From Agromyces aureus (GTDB taxonomy: Bacteria > Actinomycetota > Actinomycetes > Actinomycetales > Microbacteriaceae), in assembly GCF_001660485.1 (NCBI RefSeq), contig NZ_CP013979.1, forward strand, positions 1,984,001 through 2,048,000: a stretch of 64,000 nucleotides of DNA, written 5' to 3'. The number at the start of each line of letters is the position of its first letter. Within the stretch, counting starts at the first letter, position 1. Below are positions 1,694-64,000 of this stretch, one piece after another. A program made the translations under genes and the position numbers. The notes below the pieces were generated by a model. That model saw nothing but the letters and a program-made list of their open reading frames with translations, ran no database searches and was not told the origin of the DNA.

Positions 1694-3861
1694 CAGCCGC
1701 TGATCCGGGCGTCGGCGACCGGGTCGTCGGCAGCCGGGGGGTCGATGACGGCCCTCGCGTCGGACGCCGCGCTCGAGGCCTCGCCGAGCGCCCGGTAGAG
1801 CAGCATCGACTGCGGCGGCACGCCCACGCGTTCGCCGGGCAGGTGCTCGCTCGACTCGGTCACCGGGTGCTCGTCGGAGGAGTCCCACAGCAGCATGTAG
1901 CCCGTGACGCCGTCGTGCTCGGGCAGCACGACCTCGGCCGGCGTCTCGTGCGCGTGCACGACGAGCAGGATGCGGTTGAACTCCTCGACCTCGGGGGTCG
2001 ACGCGGCGAGGTACTGCAGCGTGCGCTCGGCGGGGTCGTTCCAGTCGTCGATGGTCATGGTCTCGCCGTCGGTGTTGTACCAGTCCATCTGCGATGCGCT
2101 CGGCGTGGTCTCGCCGAACACGCCGAAGCGCACGGGTCGGATCGCGGGGTTGTCGCGACGCAGGTGCACCAGGCGACGGGCGGTGGCCTCGAGGCCCGCA
2201 TCGCGATCCTCGGCGCTCCACGACAGCCAGGTGAGGTCGGAGTCCTGGCAGTACGCGTTGTTGTTGCCGCGCTGGCTGCGTCCGTACTCGTCGCCGGCGG
2301 TGAGCATGGGCACGCCGGCCGACAGCAGCAGCGTGCCGAGCAGGTTCCGGATGCTGCGCCGTCGCGCCGAGAGCACCTCGGCGTCGTCGGTCTCGCCCTC
2401 GACCCCGTGGTTGTACGAGTTGTTGCCGTCGGTGCCGTCGCGGTTCTGCTCGCCGTTGCCGAGGTTGTGCTTGACGTCGTACGCGGTGAGGTCGGCGAGC
2501 GTGAACCCGTCGTGCGCGGTGATGAAGTTCAGGCTCGCGAGCGGTCCGCGTTCGAGGCTGAACGTGTTCGACGAGCCGGCGAGCCGTGTGGCGAACCGGC
2601 CGATGCCGCTGCCGGCGTCGCCGGTCTCACGCTCACGGCGCAGGTCGCCCAGCCAGAAGTCGCGCATGCGGTCGCGGTAGCGGTCGTTCCACTCGATGAA
2701 TCCGCGCGGGAAGTTGCCGGTCTGCCAGCCGCCGGGGCCGACGTCCCACGGCTCGGCGATGAGCTTCGTGGCGCCGATCACGGGGTCGGCGAGCATCGCC
2801 TGCAGCAGGGGGTGGTCGGGCGTGTAGGCGCCGTGGTCGTCTCGTCCGAGGGTCGCGGCGAGGTCGAGACGGAACCCGTCGACCTGCAGTTCGTCGGCGA
2901 ACGCGCGCATCGAGTCGAGCACAAGGCGCGAGGGCTCGTCGCGACCGAAGTCGAGCGTGTTGCCGCATCCGGTCGTGTCGACGTAGCGACCGTGGGCGTC
3001 GTGGCGGTAGTACGACGCGTTGTCGATGCCGCGGAACGAGTAGGTCGGCCCTTCGCGGCCCTCTTCGGCGGTGTGGTTGTAGACCACGTCGAGCACGACC
3101 TCGAGGCCGGCCGCGTGGAGGCTGCGGACCATCTCGGCGAACTCGCGCCGCACCGCCGCCGCGCCCTTCGCACGGGCGGCGGCGGTCGCGTACGGCGCGT
3201 GCGGCGCGAAGAAGCCGAGTGTGTTGTAGCCCCAGTAGTTCGTGCGCCCCTGGCGCTTCAGGCGGTGCTCCGAGAGGAACGCGTGCACGGGCAGCAGTTC
3301 GATCGTCGTGACGCCGAGCCCGGTGAGGTACTCGAGCGACGCCTCGTGCCCGAGGCCGGCGTACGTGCCGCGCAGCGCCTCCGGCACGGCCGGGTTGAGC
3401 TTGGAGAAGCCTCGCACGTGGGCCTCGTAGACCACCGTGTGGTCGAGGGGGACCGCGGGCTTCGCGACGCCGTTCCACGAGAACCGCTCCTCGCCGTCGG
3501 CCGCGGCCGCCTCGGTCACCGGGTCGAGGGCGACGCCGTGCCACGAGCCGCCGCCGACGGCCGCGAGGCCGCGCGCGTAGGGGTCGAGCAGGGTCTGCGC
3601 CGGGTTGAACGCGTGCTCGACCCCCGTGGGGCCGTCGACGCGGAACCCGTAGCGCGCGCCGTGCACGAGCGCCGACGAGAAGCCCTGCCACACACCGTGC
3701 TCGTCGCGCGCGAGGTCGACGCGATCGGTCGCCCAGCCCGCGTCGGAGCGATCGAACACCTCGAGCTCGATCGACGTCGCGTTCGCCGACCACACTCGGA
3801 CCGTGCCGCCGTCGGCGCCGGTTCGGACGCCGAGGTCGTGCAGGGGATCGCTCTCAGACAT
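1693..3861 (-). CDS. glgX: glycogen debranching enzyme (GlgX/TreX type isoamylase)
   Basis: 722 residues, close to the usual ~700. It hydrolyses alpha-1,6 branches of glycogen left after phosphorylase action. An N-terminal CBM48-like beta domain (about residues 10-100) precedes a GH13 barrel. Barrel motifs include VVYNHT, DGFRLDLA (nucleophile Asp), LIAEPWD (acid Glu) and FITAHDGF (second Asp), so the catalytic triad is complete. The neighbouring phosphorylase supports a role in glycogen degradation. The start lies 38 bp from the divergent cysteine desulfurase, so the two share a short promoter region. Confidence 0.93.
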   Translation of the reverse strand: MSESDPLHDLGVRTGADGGTVRVWSANATSIELEVFDRSDAGWATDRVDLARDEHGVWQGFSSALVHGARYGFRVDGPTGVEHAFNPAQTLLDPYARGLAAVGGGSWHGVALDPVTEAAAADGEERFSWNGVAKPAVPLDHTVVYEAHVRGFSKLNPAVPEALRGTYAGLGHEASLEYLTGLGVTTIELLPVHAFLSEHRLKRQGRTNYWGYNTLGFFAPHAPYATAAARAKGAAAVRREFAEMVRSLHAAGLEVVLDVVYNHTAEEGREGPTYSFRGIDNASYYRHDAHGRYVDTTGCGNTLDFGRDEPSRLVLDSMRAFADELQVDGFRLDLAATLGRDDHGAYTPDHPLLQAMLADPVIGATKLIAEPWDVGPGGWQTGNFPRGFIEWNDRYRDRMRDFWLGDLRRERETGDAGSGIGRFATRLAGSSNTFSLERGPLASLNFITAHDGFTLADLTAYDVKHNLGNGEQNRDGTDGNNSYNHGVEGETDDAEVLSARRRSIRNLLGTLLLSAGVPMLTAGDEYGRSQRGNNNAYCQDSDLTWLSWSAEDRDAGLEATARRLVHLRRDNPAIRPVRFGVFGETTPSASQMDWYNTDGETMTIDDWNDPAERTLQYLAASTPEVEEFNRILLVVHAHETPAEVVLPEHDGVTGYMLLWDSSDEHPVTESSEHLPGERVGVPPQSMLLYRALGEASSAASDARAVIDPPAADDPVADARISG

Positions 3862-5217: not shown

Positions 5218-6339
5218 GTGAAGGTTCTTGCAGCGATGAGCGGTGGCGTCGACAGCGCCGTCGCGGCCGCGCGCGCCGTCGAGGCGGGGCACGAGGTCGT
5301 CGGCGTGCACCTGGCGCTCAGCCGCATGCCCGGCACCCTGCGCACCGGCAGCCGCGGCTGCTGCACCATCGAGGACTCGATGGACGCCCAGCGCGCCGCG
5401 AACGTGCTCGGCATCCCGTACTACGTGTGGGACTTCTCGGAGCGGTTCAAGGCCGACGTCGTCGACGACTTCATCTCCGAGTACTCGGCCGGCCGCACGC
5501 CCAACCCGTGCATGCGCTGCAACGAGCGCATCAAGTTCGCCGCGCTGCTCGAGAAGGCCCTCGCGCTCGGCTTCGACGCGGTCGCCACCGGCCACTACGC
5601 GAAGGTCCTCCCCGGCGCATCGGGCGCCCTCGAACTGCACCGCGCGAGCGCCGAGGCGAAGGACCAGTCCTATGTGCTCGGCGTGCTCACGGCCGAGCAG
5701 CTCGCGCACGCGTACTTCCCGCTCGGCGACACGCCGTCCAAGGCGCTCGTGCGCGAGGAGGCCGCGCGCCGTGGCCTCAGCGTCGCCCAGAAGCCCGACT
5801 CCTACGACATCTGCTTCATCCCCGACGGCGACACCAAGGGCTGGCTCGCCGACAAGGTCGGCACCGCGACCGGAGACATCGTCGACCGCACGGGCGCCGT
5901 CGTCGGCTCGCACGAGGGTGCGCACGCCTTCACCGTCGGCCAGCGCCGCGGCATGCGCCTCGGCACGCCCGCCGCCGACGGCAAGCCGCGCTTCGTGCTC
6001 GAGGTGCGCCCGAAGGAGAACACCGTCGTCGTCGGCCCCAAAGAGGCGCTCGCGACCGCGCTCATCGCCGGCTCCCGCTACACGTGGGCCGGGCTCGCAC
6101 CCGCCGACCCCGCGAGCGAGTTCGCGTGCGAGGTGCAGATCCGTGCGCACGCCGACCCGGTTCCGGCGCTCGCGCAGGTGGTTCCGGATGCCGCGGGCGC
6201 GGCCGAACTCGTCGTGACGCCCGAGATCCCGCTCGACGGGGTCGCCCCCGGGCAGACCGCCGTGATCTACGTCGGCACGCGCGTGCTCGGGCAGTTCACG
6301 ATCGACCGCACGGTGAGCGCAGTGCCCGTCGGCGTCTGA
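5218..6339 (+). CDS. mnmA: tRNA-specific 2-thiouridylase MnmA
   Basis: 373 residues with a GTG start preceded by GGAGAG. It activates U34 of Lys, Glu and Gln tRNAs with ATP and adds sulfur from a persulfide relay. The PP-loop SGGVDS opens the protein. Catalytic cysteines are visible in [12 protein letters not shown] and YDICFIPDG, and the C-terminal half carries the family beta-barrels (FTVGQRRG). The upstream cysteine desulfurase is the expected sulfur donor. Length and motifs are all normal. Confidence 0.95.
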
Positions 6340-23738: not shown

Positions 23739-24095
23739 TCACGCCCAGCCCAACTCGTGCAGCCGGTCGTCGTCGATGCCGTAGAAATGCGCGATCTCGT
23801 GCACGAGGGTGACGTGGATCTCGTCGCGGAGTTCGTCTTCGTCGTCGCAGATCGCGAGCAGCGGCTCGCGGTACAGGATGATGCGATCGGGCATCTCGCC
23901 CATGCCGTAGCGATCGCGTTCGGTCAGGGCGTAGCCGTCGTAGAGTCCGAGCAGGTCGAGCGTGCCGTCTTCGGGGCGGTCCTCGACCACGAACACGACG
24001 TTCTCGAGCCCGTCGATCATGTCGTCGGGCAGTTCATCGAGTTCGTCGACGACGATCGCCTCGAAGGCCTCCGCATCGAGCTGCACGTACGGCTC
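23739..24095 (-). CDS. zincin-like metallopeptidase family protein
   Basis: 118 residues from the GTG at 24095. The metal site HEIAHFYGIDD (HExxH plus a downstream Asp) and the preceding LLGLYDGYALTERDRYGMGE mark the small actinobacterial minimal metallopeptidase family of unknown substrate. The GTG was preferred over an ATG at 24176 because GGAG lies six bases upstream and the family starts near LDAEAFEAI; the longer reading would cross the tRNA/attL fragment. It is the last chromosomal gene before the prophage. Confidence 0.83.
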   Translation of the reverse strand, partial: EPYVQLDAEAFEAIVVDELDELPDDMIDGLENVVFVVEDRPEDGTLDLLGLYDGYALTERDRYGMGEMPDRIILYREPLLAICDDEDELRDEIHVTLVHEIAHFYGIDDDRLHELGWA

Positions 24096-24143
24096 CGATC
24101 GCCGGCGACGGACCTTCGACTGCGAATCGCAGCGAATATTCAT

Positions 24144-24168
24144 TGGGGTGAGTAACGGGGCTTGAACC
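24144..24168 (-). other. putative attL: 3' end of a tRNA-His gene
   Basis: Read on the minus strand, these 25 bases give the T loop TTCAAGC, the T stem half CCCGT, the acceptor half TACTCAC, then C and CCA. Discriminator C followed by an encoded CCA is the mark of tRNA-His. The rest of the tRNA is absent: the bases 5' of it (ending ACA) do not complete the T stem perfectly and are phage DNA. This is what remains when a phage integrates into the 3' end of a tRNA gene; the complete gene should be at attR, right of base 64,000. Confidence 0.65.
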
Positions 24169-24257
24169 TGTTGCATCTACTATCCCATGGAGGGGTGAAA
24201 ATCGCGTGATCGCGGGCGAGTGGCCAATAAGTTGGCGGGTATCACCCTGACCAAGAT

Positions 24258-24276
24258 ATTGGCGTACGGCGCCAAG
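24258..24276. promoter_or_regulatory. operator candidate O3 (ATTGGC-N7-GCCAAG)
   Basis: It has the same 6-7-6 architecture as the sites at 25038 and 25156, with one changed base. It lies between attL and the end of the first repressor gene. The flanks extend the symmetry (ATATTGGC on the left, GCCAAGAATAT on the right). Confidence 0.55.
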
Positions 24277-24289
24277 AATATTGATCCGC

Positions 24290-24305
24290 TGTAGTGCGCA
24301 CTACA
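24290..24305. promoter_or_regulatory. perfect 16-bp palindrome at the 3' end of the XRE gene
   Basis: TGTAGTGCGCACTACA is self-complementary over all 16 bases and covers the stop codon of the gene ending at 24301. With no loop it is more likely a protein binding site than a terminator. Its function is unknown. Confidence 0.5.
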
Positions 24306-24603
24306 ACGGAGAGTGCTTGGCCCGCGCCTCCACAGCGTCCGCGATCACCGCGGCGAACGGGATGCCGAGCGCCTCGCTGAGCGCGTCCGCATGCTCGATC
24401 GAGAGTTTCCGGCGACCACGGAGCAACTGCGATATCGTGCCCTGGTTGATGCCTGACCGCTGCTCGAGCTCGTCCTGAGTGACGAGAGACTCTGCTGCTA
24501 CCTCCGCGAGGACCGCAGCGATATACGGCCAGAGAGGTTCGCGCACGGCTGGACTGTATGTGTTCCCGTGGCCCCCATTTTGGTGATTCCGCCGAACATG
24601 CAC
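24301..24603 (-). CDS. XRE-family helix-turn-helix regulator (repressor candidate)
   Basis: 100 residues from the ATG at 24603; a GTG at 24546 would give 81. The HTH is LVTQDELEQRSGINQGTISQLLRGRRKLS, split here as LVTQDELEQRSG then INQGTISQLLRGRR, around residues 41-70, a typical lambda-Cro fold. It is transcribed toward attL and diverges from the small gene at 24666. It is likely part of prophage immunity control. It is shorter than CI-type repressors, with no protease-sensitive domain. Confidence 0.75.
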   Translation of the reverse strand: MHVRRNHQNGGHGNTYSPAVREPLWPYIAAVLAEVAAESLVTQDELEQRSGINQGTISQLLRGRRKLSIEHADALSEALGIPFAAVIADAVEARAKHSPL

Positions 24604-24665
24604 CCTTGCATATCATTTGCGAGGCAGGCGCTTTCCCTACTAGCGCCGCGAAGGGGACAGTGACG

Positions 24666-24836
24666 ATGCGCAACGAAGCGAAGGTCTGTGGCACGGGGGC
24701 GGCATGCGAGGCGTACTGCCCGCTGGTGCGAGTCGGGCGCGACTGCCCCGACATCGACGACATGCTCTCGATGGCAGACATGGCCGGCATCACGCCTTCC
24801 GAGCTGCTTTCGCTGCCAACGCTGCAGCACGCGTGA
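24666..24836 (+). CDS. hypothetical small Cys-containing protein
   Basis: 56 residues with an AAGGGGA ribosome site before the ATG. Four cysteines (residues 8, 14, 18 and 27) lie in the first half, and a helical acidic second half follows. It is divergent from the XRE gene ending at 24301 and overlaps the second XRE gene tail to tail by 47 bp. The position fits an immunity-region accessory gene. The function is unknown. Confidence 0.55.
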   Translation: MRNEAKVCGTGAACEAYCPLVRVGRDCPDIDDMLSMADMAGITPSELLSLPTLQHA

Positions 24837-25047
24837 GGTAGTCGGCGTGGTCGACGCCGATCACGTCGAGTATCTCGAACATCTCGTCGAGCCCGAGGGG
24901 CGTCTTCCCGTTGAGCTTCTTGCTCAGGTTCGAGACGTCGATCCCAACCTCCGCGGCGACGTTCTGCTGCGTCCAGCGGTTGGCTTTGATATCTGCCTGG
25001 AGCTGCTTGGCGTAGGCCTTTGCCCGCGCGCTGACTTCTTGGCTCAT
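24790..25047 (-). CDS. XRE-family repressor, likely autoregulated
   Basis: 85 residues. The HTH spans about residues 26-50 (WTQQNVAAEVGIDVSNLSKK), followed by LNGKTPLGLDEMFEILDVIG. It is a compact one-domain DNA-binding protein of the Cro/CI type. A 19-bp inverted repeat is centred on its own start codon and an identical-architecture site lies 118 bp away near the opposing early promoter, so it probably controls both. No cleavage domain is present, so induction may act through the antirepressor at 26263. Confidence 0.78.
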   Translation of the reverse strand: MSQEVSARAKAYAKQLQADIKANRWTQQNVAAEVGIDVSNLSKKLNGKTPLGLDEMFEILDVIGVDHADYLTRAAALAAKAARKA

Positions 25048-25056
25048 GCTGCCAAG
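25038..25056. promoter_or_regulatory. operator candidate O1 (CTTGGC-N7-GCCAAG)
   Basis: A perfect 6-bp inverted repeat with a 7-base spacer that contains the ATG of the repressor gene at 25047. Binding would block transcription or translation start of that gene. Confidence 0.7.
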
Positions 25057-25155
25057 GATATGGCGTTTAGCCCCATCTCGGTACGTTTGCGCGCAAAAAA
25101 CTGATCATTCAGGGCTACCCCTGAGGCCCCCAGTTCACGGGGGTGGTTGCATGAA

Positions 25156-25174
25156 CTTGGCGGAGTTTGCCAAG
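25156..25174. promoter_or_regulatory. operator candidate O2 (CTTGGC-N7-GCCAAG)
   Basis: Identical half-sites and spacer length to O1. It ends six bases before the -35 box of the early rightward promoter. The adjacent CAAGAAGTTG (25171-25180) is repeated exactly 50 bp downstream at 25221-25230. Confidence 0.7.
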
Positions 25175-25180
25175 AAGTTG

Positions 25181-25209
25181 TTGCGAAACGCCATTGTGCG
25201 CGCTACTGT
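25181..25209 (+). promoter_or_regulatory. early rightward promoter, leaderless
   Basis: TTGCGA and TACTGT are separated by 17 bases. The next gene begins with ATG at 25216, seven bases after the -10 box, so the transcript would start at or next to the start codon with no room for a ribosome site. Confidence 0.6.
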
Positions 25210-25215
25210 CCTCGT

Positions 25216-25356
25216 ATGCACAAGAAGTTGGCGCCAGACACCAACATCATCACTCGGGTGGTGGAGGTCGTCGGAGGCGAATACGAAGACGTGAACGTCG
25301 ATGATCTGCTCGCCACGTGCGACGCTCTCGGCGTCGAGCCGGTGGAGCTGCTGTGA
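25216..25356 (+). CDS. small early protein (Cro position)
   Basis: 46 residues beginning MHKKLAPDTN. No known domain is seen; the sequence is acidic with VVEVVGGEYEDVNVDDLL in the middle. It is the first gene of the rightward early operon and would be read from a leaderless message. Its stop overlaps the next start as GTGA, which supports that it is real. It could be a Cro-like or accessory regulator but has no visible HTH. Confidence 0.6.
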   Translation: MHKKLAPDTNIITRVVEVVGGEYEDVNVDDLLATCDALGVEPVELL

Positions 25357-25553
25357 ACGCGGGGGAGGGGCACGAGCCCTGGGTCGATGCGACCGTCGTC
25401 GCGAAGCACATCGGCGTCGAACCGCAGACGGTGCGCGAGTACGCCCGGCTGAAGAAGCTACCCGGCCGCAAGTTCGGCGGGTCATGGCGATTCCGACTCT
25501 CGGACATCGATGCGCCGGCCCCCGTGGCCGACCCGTGGGTGCGGAAGAACTGA
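25353..25553 (+). CDS. excisionase-like / MerR-type winged HTH DNA-binding protein
   Basis: 66 residues with a GTG start. The segment VDATVVAKHIGVEPQTVREY, then LPGRKFGGSWRF and RLSDIDA, is the excisionase-family helix-turn-helix (HTH_17) pattern. In a prophage it could be Xis, directing excision by the integrase, or an early regulator. It lies far from int, at the opposite end of the element, so the regulatory role is also open. Confidence 0.72.
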   Translation: MNAGEGHEPWVDATVVAKHIGVEPQTVREYARLKKLPGRKFGGSWRFRLSDIDAPAPVADPWVRKN

Positions 25554-25770
25554 TGGACACGCGCTGGAAGCCCATCCCGGGCCACGAGCACAGTCACGAG
25601 GTCTCAGAGTTCGGAGACGTTCGTCGAGTAGGCACCCCGACGCGGGCGCCGAAAGCGCTCCGGCCGATCACCGATCGTACACGCCTGAGAACACGTGGCA
25701 CAAGCACGACCGGCGGACCGGTCGCAGCTACCGCGTCTGTCGAGAGTGTCGGCGCGCGACCCGCGTCTGA
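25553..25770 (+). pseudogene. NUMOD4/HNH-type protein, apparently frameshifted
   Basis: The ATG overlaps the upstream stop (TGATG). The first ~40 residues (RWKPIPGHEHSHEVSEFGDVR) match the NUMOD4 motif found in front of HNH endonucleases. After about base 25,660 this frame becomes meaningless, while another frame reads SYTPENTWHKHDRRTGRSYR then VCRECRRA, typical of the zinc-binding tail of small phage HNH proteins. A frameshift, natural or from sequencing, probably joins them. The full HNH core is not seen. Confidence 0.55.
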
Positions 25771-26262: not shown

Positions 26263-27015
26263 ATGACCTCAATGGAAATCGTATCGCACGCGTTCAACGG
26301 CGTGCAGGTGCGAGCAGAGATCGACGAGCACGGAGATCCGTGGTTCATCGCGGCCGACGTGTGCCGCGTCCTGGAACACACCAACCCGACGATGGCGGTC
26401 GCCGCACTCGACGACGACGAGAAGGGTCTCAGCAATGTTGAGACCCCTGGCGGTGCCCAGCTGCTCGTCAGCGTGAGCGAGGCCGGCCTGTACTCGCTCA
26501 TCCTCCGCTCGCGGAAGCCGGAAGCGAAGGCCTTCAAGCGGTGGATCACCCACGAGGTGCTCCCCAGCATCCGCCACACCGGCCAGTACGTGGCCGAGTC
26601 GCCTGAACAGCTCATGGCCCGCGCGCTCGTGCAGGCGCAGCAGACGCTCGAACAGTCCGCGGCCCGTATCGCGGAGCTCGAACCTCGCGCGGAGGCGTGG
26701 AACGCGATCGCATCCGCCGAGGGCGACTACTCCGTGGGCGACGCGGCCAAGATCCTCGCCCGCGCCGGCATCCCGACCGGGCCCACGCGACTGTTCACTC
26801 AGCTGCGCGACCTGAAGTGGACGTACCGCGGCGCCGACGGCGCGTGGCGGGCGTACGCGGAACGGGTCGAGTCCGGCCACCTCGCGGAGAAGCCGCAGTT
26901 CCACTACCACCCGTCGACCGGTGAGCGGGTGCTGGATGCCCCGCAGGTGCGGGTCACGGTCAAGGGCCTCGAGCGGCTGCGGCTTCGGCTGCATGTCGGA
27001 AAGGCGGTCGCGTGA
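26263..27015 (+). CDS. phage antirepressor (Bro-N plus KilAC-type)
   Basis: 250 residues. The Bro-N domain covers about residues 8-105 (VRAEIDEHGDPWFIAADVCR, EAGLYSLILRSRKPEAKAF, RWITHEVLPSIRHTGQY). A short coiled segment follows, and the C-terminal DNA-binding KilAC-type domain starts near residue 145 (DYSVGDAAKILARAGI, then LRDLKWTYRGADG). The ATG at 26263 has AGAGGAAAG upstream. The likely role is to counter repression and start lytic growth. It follows the structured RNA region, as phage antirepressors often do. Confidence 0.88.
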   Translation: MTSMEIVSHAFNGVQVRAEIDEHGDPWFIAADVCRVLEHTNPTMAVAALDDDEKGLSNVETPGGAQLLVSVSEAGLYSLILRSRKPEAKAFKRWITHEVLPSIRHTGQYVAESPEQLMARALVQAQQTLEQSAARIAELEPRAEAWNAIASAEGDYSVGDAAKILARAGIPTGPTRLFTQLRDLKWTYRGADGAWRAYAERVESGHLAEKPQFHYHPSTGERVLDAPQVRVTVKGLERLRLRLHVGKAVA

Positions 27016-63397: not shown

Positions 63398-64000
63398 CTA
63401 CGCCTCGATGCGGGGGAGCACGTTCGACATGATCGCGGCCATGGAATCTGACATCTGCGTCTGCACGTCGGGTAGCAGGTGCCCGTACGTGTTAATCGTC
63501 GTCGTGATGGACTCGTGCCCGAGGCGCTGTTGGATGAACGGCAGCGGCTTGCCGTCGGCGATGAGCCATGACGCACCCGTGTGGCGCAAGTCGTGCGGGG
63601 TCGGCACGGGGTCGAGGCCCGCGCGGACAACAGCCTTGTCCCACACCTTCCGGAACGGCGAGTACCACTGGCGTCCGCCGAGAGGCCCGGTGAACACGTA
63701 GTCGTCTGGCGCGCCGGGTGCGCCAAACTGCTGGACGAGCTCGGGCCACAGCGCGATCGTCCGTCGGCCGCGTCTCGTCTTCGTGACGCCGATGCGCGTC
63801 TTCTCATGGCCGTGCTTCTTCTTCCACGCCTGGTGGAGGCTGACCGTCGGGGGAGTGGTGTCGCCGTGGACGTGCTTCCACTGCAGTGCGGTCGCCTCCG
63901 ACCATCGCGCCTGGGAGCCGACGAGGAACGCTACGAGCGGTCGGTAGTGCTCGGGCGTCGCTTCGTAGAGGCGAGCGAACTGCGCGCGCGACAGGAACAC
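63398..64000 (-). CDS. int: tyrosine-type integrase, C-terminal part
   Basis: The gene continues past base 64,000; about 200 residues are seen, the catalytic half. The tetrad is complete: Arg in SQARWSEATALQW, HDLRHTGASWLI, His in LGHESITTTINT and Tyr in TYGHLLP. The family recombines phage attP with a tRNA gene or other host site. The attL-like tRNA-His piece at 24144 fits a tRNA target, and attR should lie just outside. Confidence 0.93.
   Translation of the reverse strand: MFLSRAQFARLYEATPEHYRPLVAFLVGSQARWSEATALQWKHVHGDTTPPTVSLHQAWKKKHGHEKTRIGVTKTRRGRRTIALWPELVQQFGAPGAPDDYVFTGPLGGRQWYSPFRKVWDKAVVRAGLDPVPTPHDLRHTGASWLIADGKPLPFIQQRLGHESITTTINTYGHLLPDVQTQMSDSMAAIMSNVLPRIEA

Follow-up and report, generated by a model that had tools for sequence, protein, structure and literature searches.

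An operator-type dyad in the attachment arm of an Agromyces aureus prophage suggests a link between immunity control and integration

A 64,000-nucleotide stretch of the Agromyces aureus genome (contig NZ_CP013979.1, positions 1,984,001 to 2,048,000 of the forward strand; hereafter the window, whose coordinates are used unless stated otherwise) contains all but the last 0.7 kb of a prophage integrated at a tRNA-His gene. The immunity region of this prophage carries copies of one dyad, TTGGC-N7-GCCAA, around a small gene in repressor position that encodes a helix-turn-helix (HTH) protein, here called XRE B. A further copy lies in the P' arm of attP, the attachment site of the phage; this arm forms the phage side of attL after integration. 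Sharing of sites between the arm and the immunity region appears to recur in four of five relatives, with letters that are specific to each phage. It is proposed, with about an even chance of being right, that a single immunity regulator, with XRE B as the likeliest candidate, extends its control to the attP-borne integrase module, probably through an integrase promoter that would serve the integrase gene (int) in the circular phage only. The evidence is computational throughout.

Results

Position and rarity of the dyads

The dyad copies considered here are the following.

25038..25056: O1, exact dyad over the ATG of the 85-residue XRE B gene
25156..25174: O2, exact dyad 6 bp upstream of the -35 element of the putative early promoter
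24258..24276: O3, TTGGC-N7-GCCAA dyad in the P' arm, its centre 30.5 bp from the centre of the arm palindrome
25228..25244: O4, weaker copy TTGGC-N7-ACCAA where the early gene begins, one mismatch to the 17-bp core
24223..24236 (feature 24223..24237): second P' arm dyad, GCCAA-N4-TTGGC

On re-reading of the window CTTGGC-N7-GCCAAG was found exactly at O1 and O2, and a single base is altered in O3 (A for C at position 1). An earlier sequence-only reading had described these as three operators of the immunity region. That reading was right in that similarly built sites recur close together in the control region, next to a small XRE gene in repressor position; the third site belongs to the P' arm of attP/attL, a location which that reading had missed together with the weaker fourth copy, O4. 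Because the site at 24258 lies in the P' arm, the dyad set would tie immunity to the integration module.

Rather than many equal sites across the genome, a whole-genome scan (4,373,124 bases, single contig) found the exact 19-mer at two places, both in the prophage control region. Allowing one mismatch gave 11 places, three of them in the control region and eight in the rest of the 4.37 Mb, against 35 for the reversed pattern used as a control, so the dyad is locally clustered and is not over-represented genome-wide. When the prophage was scanned (24137-64000 plus the remaining 0.7 kb up to attR), the 17-bp core was exact at 24259, 25039 and 25157 only, with O4 as its sole one-mismatch copy. 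At up to three mismatches to the 19-mer the window contains 45 matches where 30.6 are expected, and only exact and one-mismatch copies were therefore counted. The sequence CAAKAAGTTGGCG, at 24225-24237 within the second arm dyad, recurs in the prophage only at 25221-25233, the start of the early gene.

The 6-N7-6 design resembles a tyrosine-integrase core site. That assignment was rejected, as the 3' end of tRNA-His provides the real core and two copies lie some 0.9-1.0 kb away at XRE B.

The attachment site and the integrase

The 40.5 kb prophage is bounded by a 32-bp repeat that is 100% identical at its two ends, as found by a DNA search of the genus. The elements of the attachment site are listed below.

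24137..24168: attL common core, 32 bp, 3' end of tRNA-His
24169..24289: P' arm of attP (phage side of attL)
24290..24305: perfect palindrome TGTAGTGCGCACTACA, putative integrase arm-type sites
Genome 2048653-2048684: attR, identical 32-bp copy just outside the window
L008 4660-4735, minus strand: intact tRNA-His gene at the right prophage end
L008 4602-4622: direct repeats GATGTAGTG / GATGTAGTT in the other attachment arm
63398..64000, minus strand: 3' part of the tyrosine integrase gene, which runs on to genome position 2048570 (L008 3398-4570)

O3 is situated between the core, which lies outside both XRE genes of the region, and the TGTAGTGCGCACTACA palindrome. The other arm has direct repeats of the hexamer of that palindrome, and the same palindrome pattern is present in four relatives. 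By analogy with lambda-type integrases, we infer that the palindrome and the direct repeats are arm-type sites of the integrase. The integrase gene itself stands just inside the right prophage end on the minus strand, with relatives in 505 phage records at E 1e-20, and in the integrated state it lies directly downstream of tRNA-His on the same strand. A scan of L008 4400-4800 gave no site resembling a terminator or a promoter.

Site sharing between the arm and the immunity region in relatives

Five relatives were compared: the Agromyces prophage G054, A. cerinus DSM 8595 (G013/L056), the IMG/VR contigs L057 and L058/L061, and Microbacterium phage Footloose (L055). The first four have the same tRNA-His core and the same arm repeats, and inspection of their open reading frames (ORFs) by eye gave a common gene order of HTH gene, small Cys-containing ORF, repressor (minus strand), early promoter, Cro-like gene and Xis-like gene. 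In L058 the arm palindrome and the HTH gene are separated by one additional gene (5806-6114). Footloose has the same core, an integrase 48% identical, and attP between the HTH genes and the integrase; the TGTAGTN4ACTACA palindrome is absent from it, and for this reason 50 bp were added to its arm, relative to the others, in the sharing test.

In this test each P' arm was compared with all six immunity regions, and the best ungapped match was set against 200 dinucleotide shuffles of the arm. For the arm and its own immunity region, p was.010 in the A. aureus prophage,.030 in G054,.045 in L057,.005 in L058,.020 in Footloose and.617 in A. cerinus. Thus five of six own pairs, compared with three of 30 cross pairs, reached p <=.05. 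The three cross pairs were A. aureus-L058 (.030), A. cerinus-L058 (.025) and L058-G054 (.005), the last two with repressors that are 58% identical. By hand arithmetic the difference between own and cross pairs has p ~0.0008, which is no strict probability because the phages are related. Windows matched for guanine-cytosine (GC) content scored at or above the arm in 0 of 10 cases for A. aureus, 2 of 63 for G054, 0 of 108 for Footloose and 51 of 80 for A. cerinus.

Copies of the shared motifs were also counted phage-wide, as description after the fact. In G054, TGGGAAATRTCCC has two exact copies, the first in the arm and the second immediately ahead of the early promoter; TATTAGCAAG likewise has two, in the arm and in the immunity region. 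Footloose has three exact copies of TCAGTAATTGC (attP and two in the immunity region), a variant TCAGTATTTACTG at attP and another one-mismatch copy just downstream of int. ATGTGGCAAG occurs exactly three times in the 13 kb of L061, where 0.03 are expected, and the 8-mer shared in A. cerinus, TTGGTCAT, has two copies phage-wide, about the chance level.

The position of the arm site is also similar in some of these phages. The strongest arm dyad is centred 30.5 bp from the centre of the arm palindrome in A. aureus and 31.0 bp in G054, and the shared arm site of L058 lies, by eye, about 31 bp away; no strong dyad at about this distance was found in A. cerinus or L057.

Promoter candidates in the arm

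Since int is on the minus strand, the minus strand of the circle runs through the P' arm, core, P arm and int in that order. The core and P' arm of the six phages (a 190 bp stretch in Footloose) were scanned for promoters against 300 shuffle sets; an earlier version of the scan had covered five phages. A promoter-like site directed towards int was found in four of the six arms, a result equalled by 1 of 300 shuffle sets, compared with one of six directed away from int, equalled by 177 of 300. The int-ward candidates are as follows.

G054: ATGCCA-17-TAATAT
L057: TTGGCA-16-TAGACT
L058: TTGCCA-18-TAGAAT
Footloose: CTGTCA-18-TACACT

In our reading the shared site adjoins or overlaps the candidate in all four. 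In the circle these candidates, from the end opposite int, would read across the core into int; the A. aureus prophage is not among the four.

The control region and the XRE B family

The remaining features of the control region are given below.

24301..24603, minus strand: XRE A, 100-residue HTH_3 protein
24667..24836, plus strand: small Cys-containing ORF, 56 residues
24790..25047, minus strand: XRE B, 85-residue HTH_3 protein in repressor position
25109..25126: second palindrome, TCAGGGCTACCCCTGAGG, the prophage's best match to a hand-made consensus common to four relatives
25181..25209, plus strand: putative early promoter, TTGCGA-N17-TACTGT, 6 nucleotides before an ATG, leaderless
25216..25356, plus strand: 46-residue gene in Cro position
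25353..25553, plus strand: HTH_17 excisionase-like protein, Xis candidate
26263..27015, plus strand: Bro-N/ANT antirepressor

A small HTH_3 repressor-type gene diverges from the early genes with repeated dyads in between, which is the CI/Cro layout. The gene opposite the repressor does not encode an HTH-bearing Cro, as its 46-residue product is without most of the HTH region that is kept in three aligned relatives (73-79 residues). The early promoter was assigned by analogy with the promoters of relatives; a standard promoter scan of 24100-25700 found none, and every scan missed 25181-25209. The early promoters of A. aureus, L051, L052, L057 and L058 appear to be leaderless, with the -10 element 6-7 nucleotides before the ATG (by eye; by scan for four). 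The small ORF that precedes the repressor has, by eye, a C-G-x-G-x-x-C-E-x-x-C-P-like pattern and counterparts in the same place in L051, L052, L057 and L058; neither it nor its G054 counterpart matched anything in Pfam or PHROGs.

XRE B is 27-30% identical in alignment to the proteins that take its place in relatives. Pairwise BLASTP with four positional counterparts gave E values of 9e-8, 5e-5,.007 and.11, and a family profile comparison covering the four tRNA-His relatives gave a probability of 95.7 and E 8.7e-9, so that XRE B and these counterparts are taken as one family. Genome searches with XRE B missed some positional counterparts, and the matches that they returned were not used (2 of 60 Agromyces genomes, and 21 of 398 genomes of the bacterial family with weak matches, own genome included in both; 15 phage records, all weak). 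An AlphaFold model built from five sequences has a five-helix XRE fold (mean pLDDT 84). Its best structural neighbour in the PDB is ClgR (3f51, E 1.3e-3), accompanied by restriction-modification controller proteins, with none at or below 1e-3; a PDB sequence search gave weak matches at E.02-.07, five of six to HipB. The predicted structure and its neighbours thus only confirm the XRE fold. XRE A proved unrelated to its positional counterparts in three relatives on direct comparison, although both weakly match PHROG 3949. The HTH stretch of Xis is nearly identical, by eye, in A. cerinus and L057 despite their differing distal arm sequences.

A palindrome like that at 25109-25126 is common to five immunity regions and was not found in Footloose. 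It differs from the hand-made consensus at two positions in A. aureus, three in G054 (where one other place ties), one in A. cerinus and two each in L057 and L058. TCAGGGCTAGCACTGAGG-like palindromes were noted mid-way in the immunity region at 25109-25126, L070:1299, L073:1259, 2869 and 2940 of the L057 reverse complement, and L058:7132; palindromic relatives were also noted elsewhere (L072:5022, L058:3951, and 127 of the L057 reverse complement). The mid-way palindrome may be an operator, a promoter element or a terminator.

Eight IMG/VR contigs were retrieved by their P-arm pattern. Two were those already included (L057 and L058) and six were set aside: L065 resembles by sequence the prophage of G054 itself, and L064 and L066-L069, with no core adjoining, were judged chance matches. 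G175 and G186 (integrase 53% identical, beside tRNA-His-like sequence) were excluded from the sharing test on account of other arm sequences, by eye; G037 (integrase 36%) was excluded as well. L062 (about 2900-3000) and L063 (about 1370-1450), from two other members of the bacterial family with related (53%) integrases at tRNA-His-like sequence, show different, TGTTGGCAGAT-like arm repeats by eye, and arm specificity may therefore have shifted within the lineage.

Discussion

Location, rarity and sharing of the dyads suggest the following model. A dimeric HTH regulator would bind the 17-bp dyad at its own start (O1), giving autoregulation. It would also flank the early lytic promoter, at O2 and the weaker O4, and occupy O3 in the P' arm of attP/attL. 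An integrase promoter (P_int) in the P' arm would drive int in the circular phage, and a site of the O3 type would place P_int under immunity control, whether positive or negative. Integration would separate int from P_int and set it directly downstream of the host tRNA-His gene on the same strand, while P_int and its operator would remain at attL. At attL such a promoter, if it exists, would face a host zincin-like metallopeptidase gene (23739-24176). An operator on an attP-borne integrase promoter is favoured because int-ward candidates were found in four of the six phages with the shared site adjoining or overlapping them.

XRE B is a plausible ligand of the dyads and probably the right one. 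It is favoured because O1 covers its start codon, because members of its family fill this position in each of the five tRNA-His phages, and because little of the HTH is left in the Cro-position protein of this prophage. Two other HTH candidates, XRE A and the Xis-like protein, are encoded nearby. That the dyads are sites of one of these, with XRE B acting on the 25109-25126 palindrome, is held to be decidedly improbable: the palindrome does recur in five immunity regions alongside related repressor-position proteins, yet O1 lies over the XRE B start codon, the arm sites persist in most relatives although XRE A is unrelated to its counterparts in the three tested, and the Cro-position protein lacks most of its HTH.

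A bolder alternative, which we consider rather unlikely, is that the arm site belongs to the recombination machinery, with the regulator or a Cro/Xis-type protein aiding or blocking assembly of the integrase complex and no promoter involved. The placement of the arm dyad between core and arm palindrome, at 30.5-31 bp in A. aureus and G054 and about 31 bp by eye in L058 despite different sequences, speaks for this, as do the want of a convincing promoter in the A. aureus arm and the precedent of a dual excisionase/regulator in phage 186 (PMC7498355). Apl sites are direct repeats one turn apart, and the Apl/Cox operators are distinct from those of the repressor, whereas the present dyads are common to arm and repressor region (PMC7498355). 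Against it also stand the near-identical Xis HTH of A. cerinus and L057 with different distal arms, the absence of a strong dyad at this distance in the same two phages, and the int-ward promoter-like sites in four of six arms. A related and unlikely extension would make the repressor itself a recombination control factor: occupancy of the P' arm dyad would lock the prophage at attL and block integration of superinfecting relatives, immunity would act on both transcription and recombination, and the arm site would change with the operator from phage to phage.

Chance, with O3 accidental and the sharing in relatives due to intergenic DNA richer in AT, is regarded as very improbable. One relative gives no signal, three cross pairs also reach p <=.05, and some windows of the A. 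aureus prophage match as well as its arm. Dinucleotide shuffles and GC-matched windows, on the other hand, reproduce the sharing only for A. cerinus, and with eight one-mismatch sites in the rest of the genome, a match in a given 121-bp arm is expected, by our arithmetic, about 2 times in 10,000.

Several observations weigh against control of the integrase module by an immunity regulator. A. cerinus fails the sharing test, with 375 of 677 windows scoring at or above its arm. Sliding windows over whole phages scored at or above the arm in 15 of 664 cases for A. aureus, 12 of 682 for G054 and 8 of 650 for Footloose, a moderate control, and the motif counts in relatives are post hoc because the motifs were read off the sites themselves. 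Scannable sequence amounted to 4.5 kb for L057 and 7.6-13 kb for L058. No promoter in the P' arms of A. aureus and A. cerinus passed the scan threshold, and some of the int-ward candidates had been spotted by eye before the scan criteria were fixed. XRE B retrieved only itself from the protein database, and in a search of G054 it found nothing at E 1e-3. The centre of O2 is about 51 bp upstream of the putative leaderless start, and a site upstream of the -35 element is more usual for an activator; the O4 stretch was, in addition, marked as a terminator-like hairpin of the minus strand. Finally, the 25109-25126 palindrome may be the main operator of the repressor.

In lambda and 434, CI-Cro switches combine a small XRE repressor divergent from the early gene with 17-bp dyad operators and autoregulation, and the A. 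aureus prophage resembles them in its small XRE gene divergent from the early gene, in its 17-bp dyads and in its presumed autoregulation. To our knowledge lambda CI has operators at OL and OR and none at attP; here, unlike in lambda, one dyad copy lies in the attachment arm. Three other systems couple some of the same elements. Apl of phage 186 and Cox of P2 are dual excisionase-regulators whose binding sites, direct repeats spaced by one helical turn, differ from the repressor operators; as here, their sites lie at early promoters and at attP, and lysogeny control is coupled to recombination, whereas the present sites are dyads, of which one covers the start codon of the repressor itself, and a repressor-like protein is the favoured ligand (PMC7498355). 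ICEKp1, a precedent for the promoter switch proposed here, changes int promoters according to its state, a far-end promoter driving int in the circle, and its int when integrated is likewise directly downstream of a host tRNA gene on the same strand; no immunity-repressor operator is described at its far-end promoter in the part consulted, and the present element is a phage at tRNA-His (PMC13023037). In mycobacteriophage BPs, also an actinobacterial temperate phage with attP physically linked to repressor control, attP lies inside the repressor gene, repressor operators occur at several promoters and arm-type sites are dispensable; in the A. aureus prophage attP is outside the repressor gene, arm-type-like repeats are present and a repressor-type site stands in the arm (PMC4557955, PMC9262239). 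In the portion of the open-access literature covered, with subscription journals mostly outside it, no description of such an immunity-attachment link in this phage group was recognised.

The prophage thus appears to be a variant of an already known coupling between immunity and integration, its new element being an operator-type site in the attachment arm that seems to recur in relatives. Interest accordingly shifts from a third immunity operator, as in the sequence-only reading, to a third site in the attachment arm. We know of only a few models among actinobacterial temperate phages in which integrase activity is known to be coordinated with the lysogeny decision. A repressor-type operator within the attachment site would be a simple physical link between lysogeny control and the integrase and, if the proposal is true, the arm operator would predict which phages interfere with one another at the level of integration.
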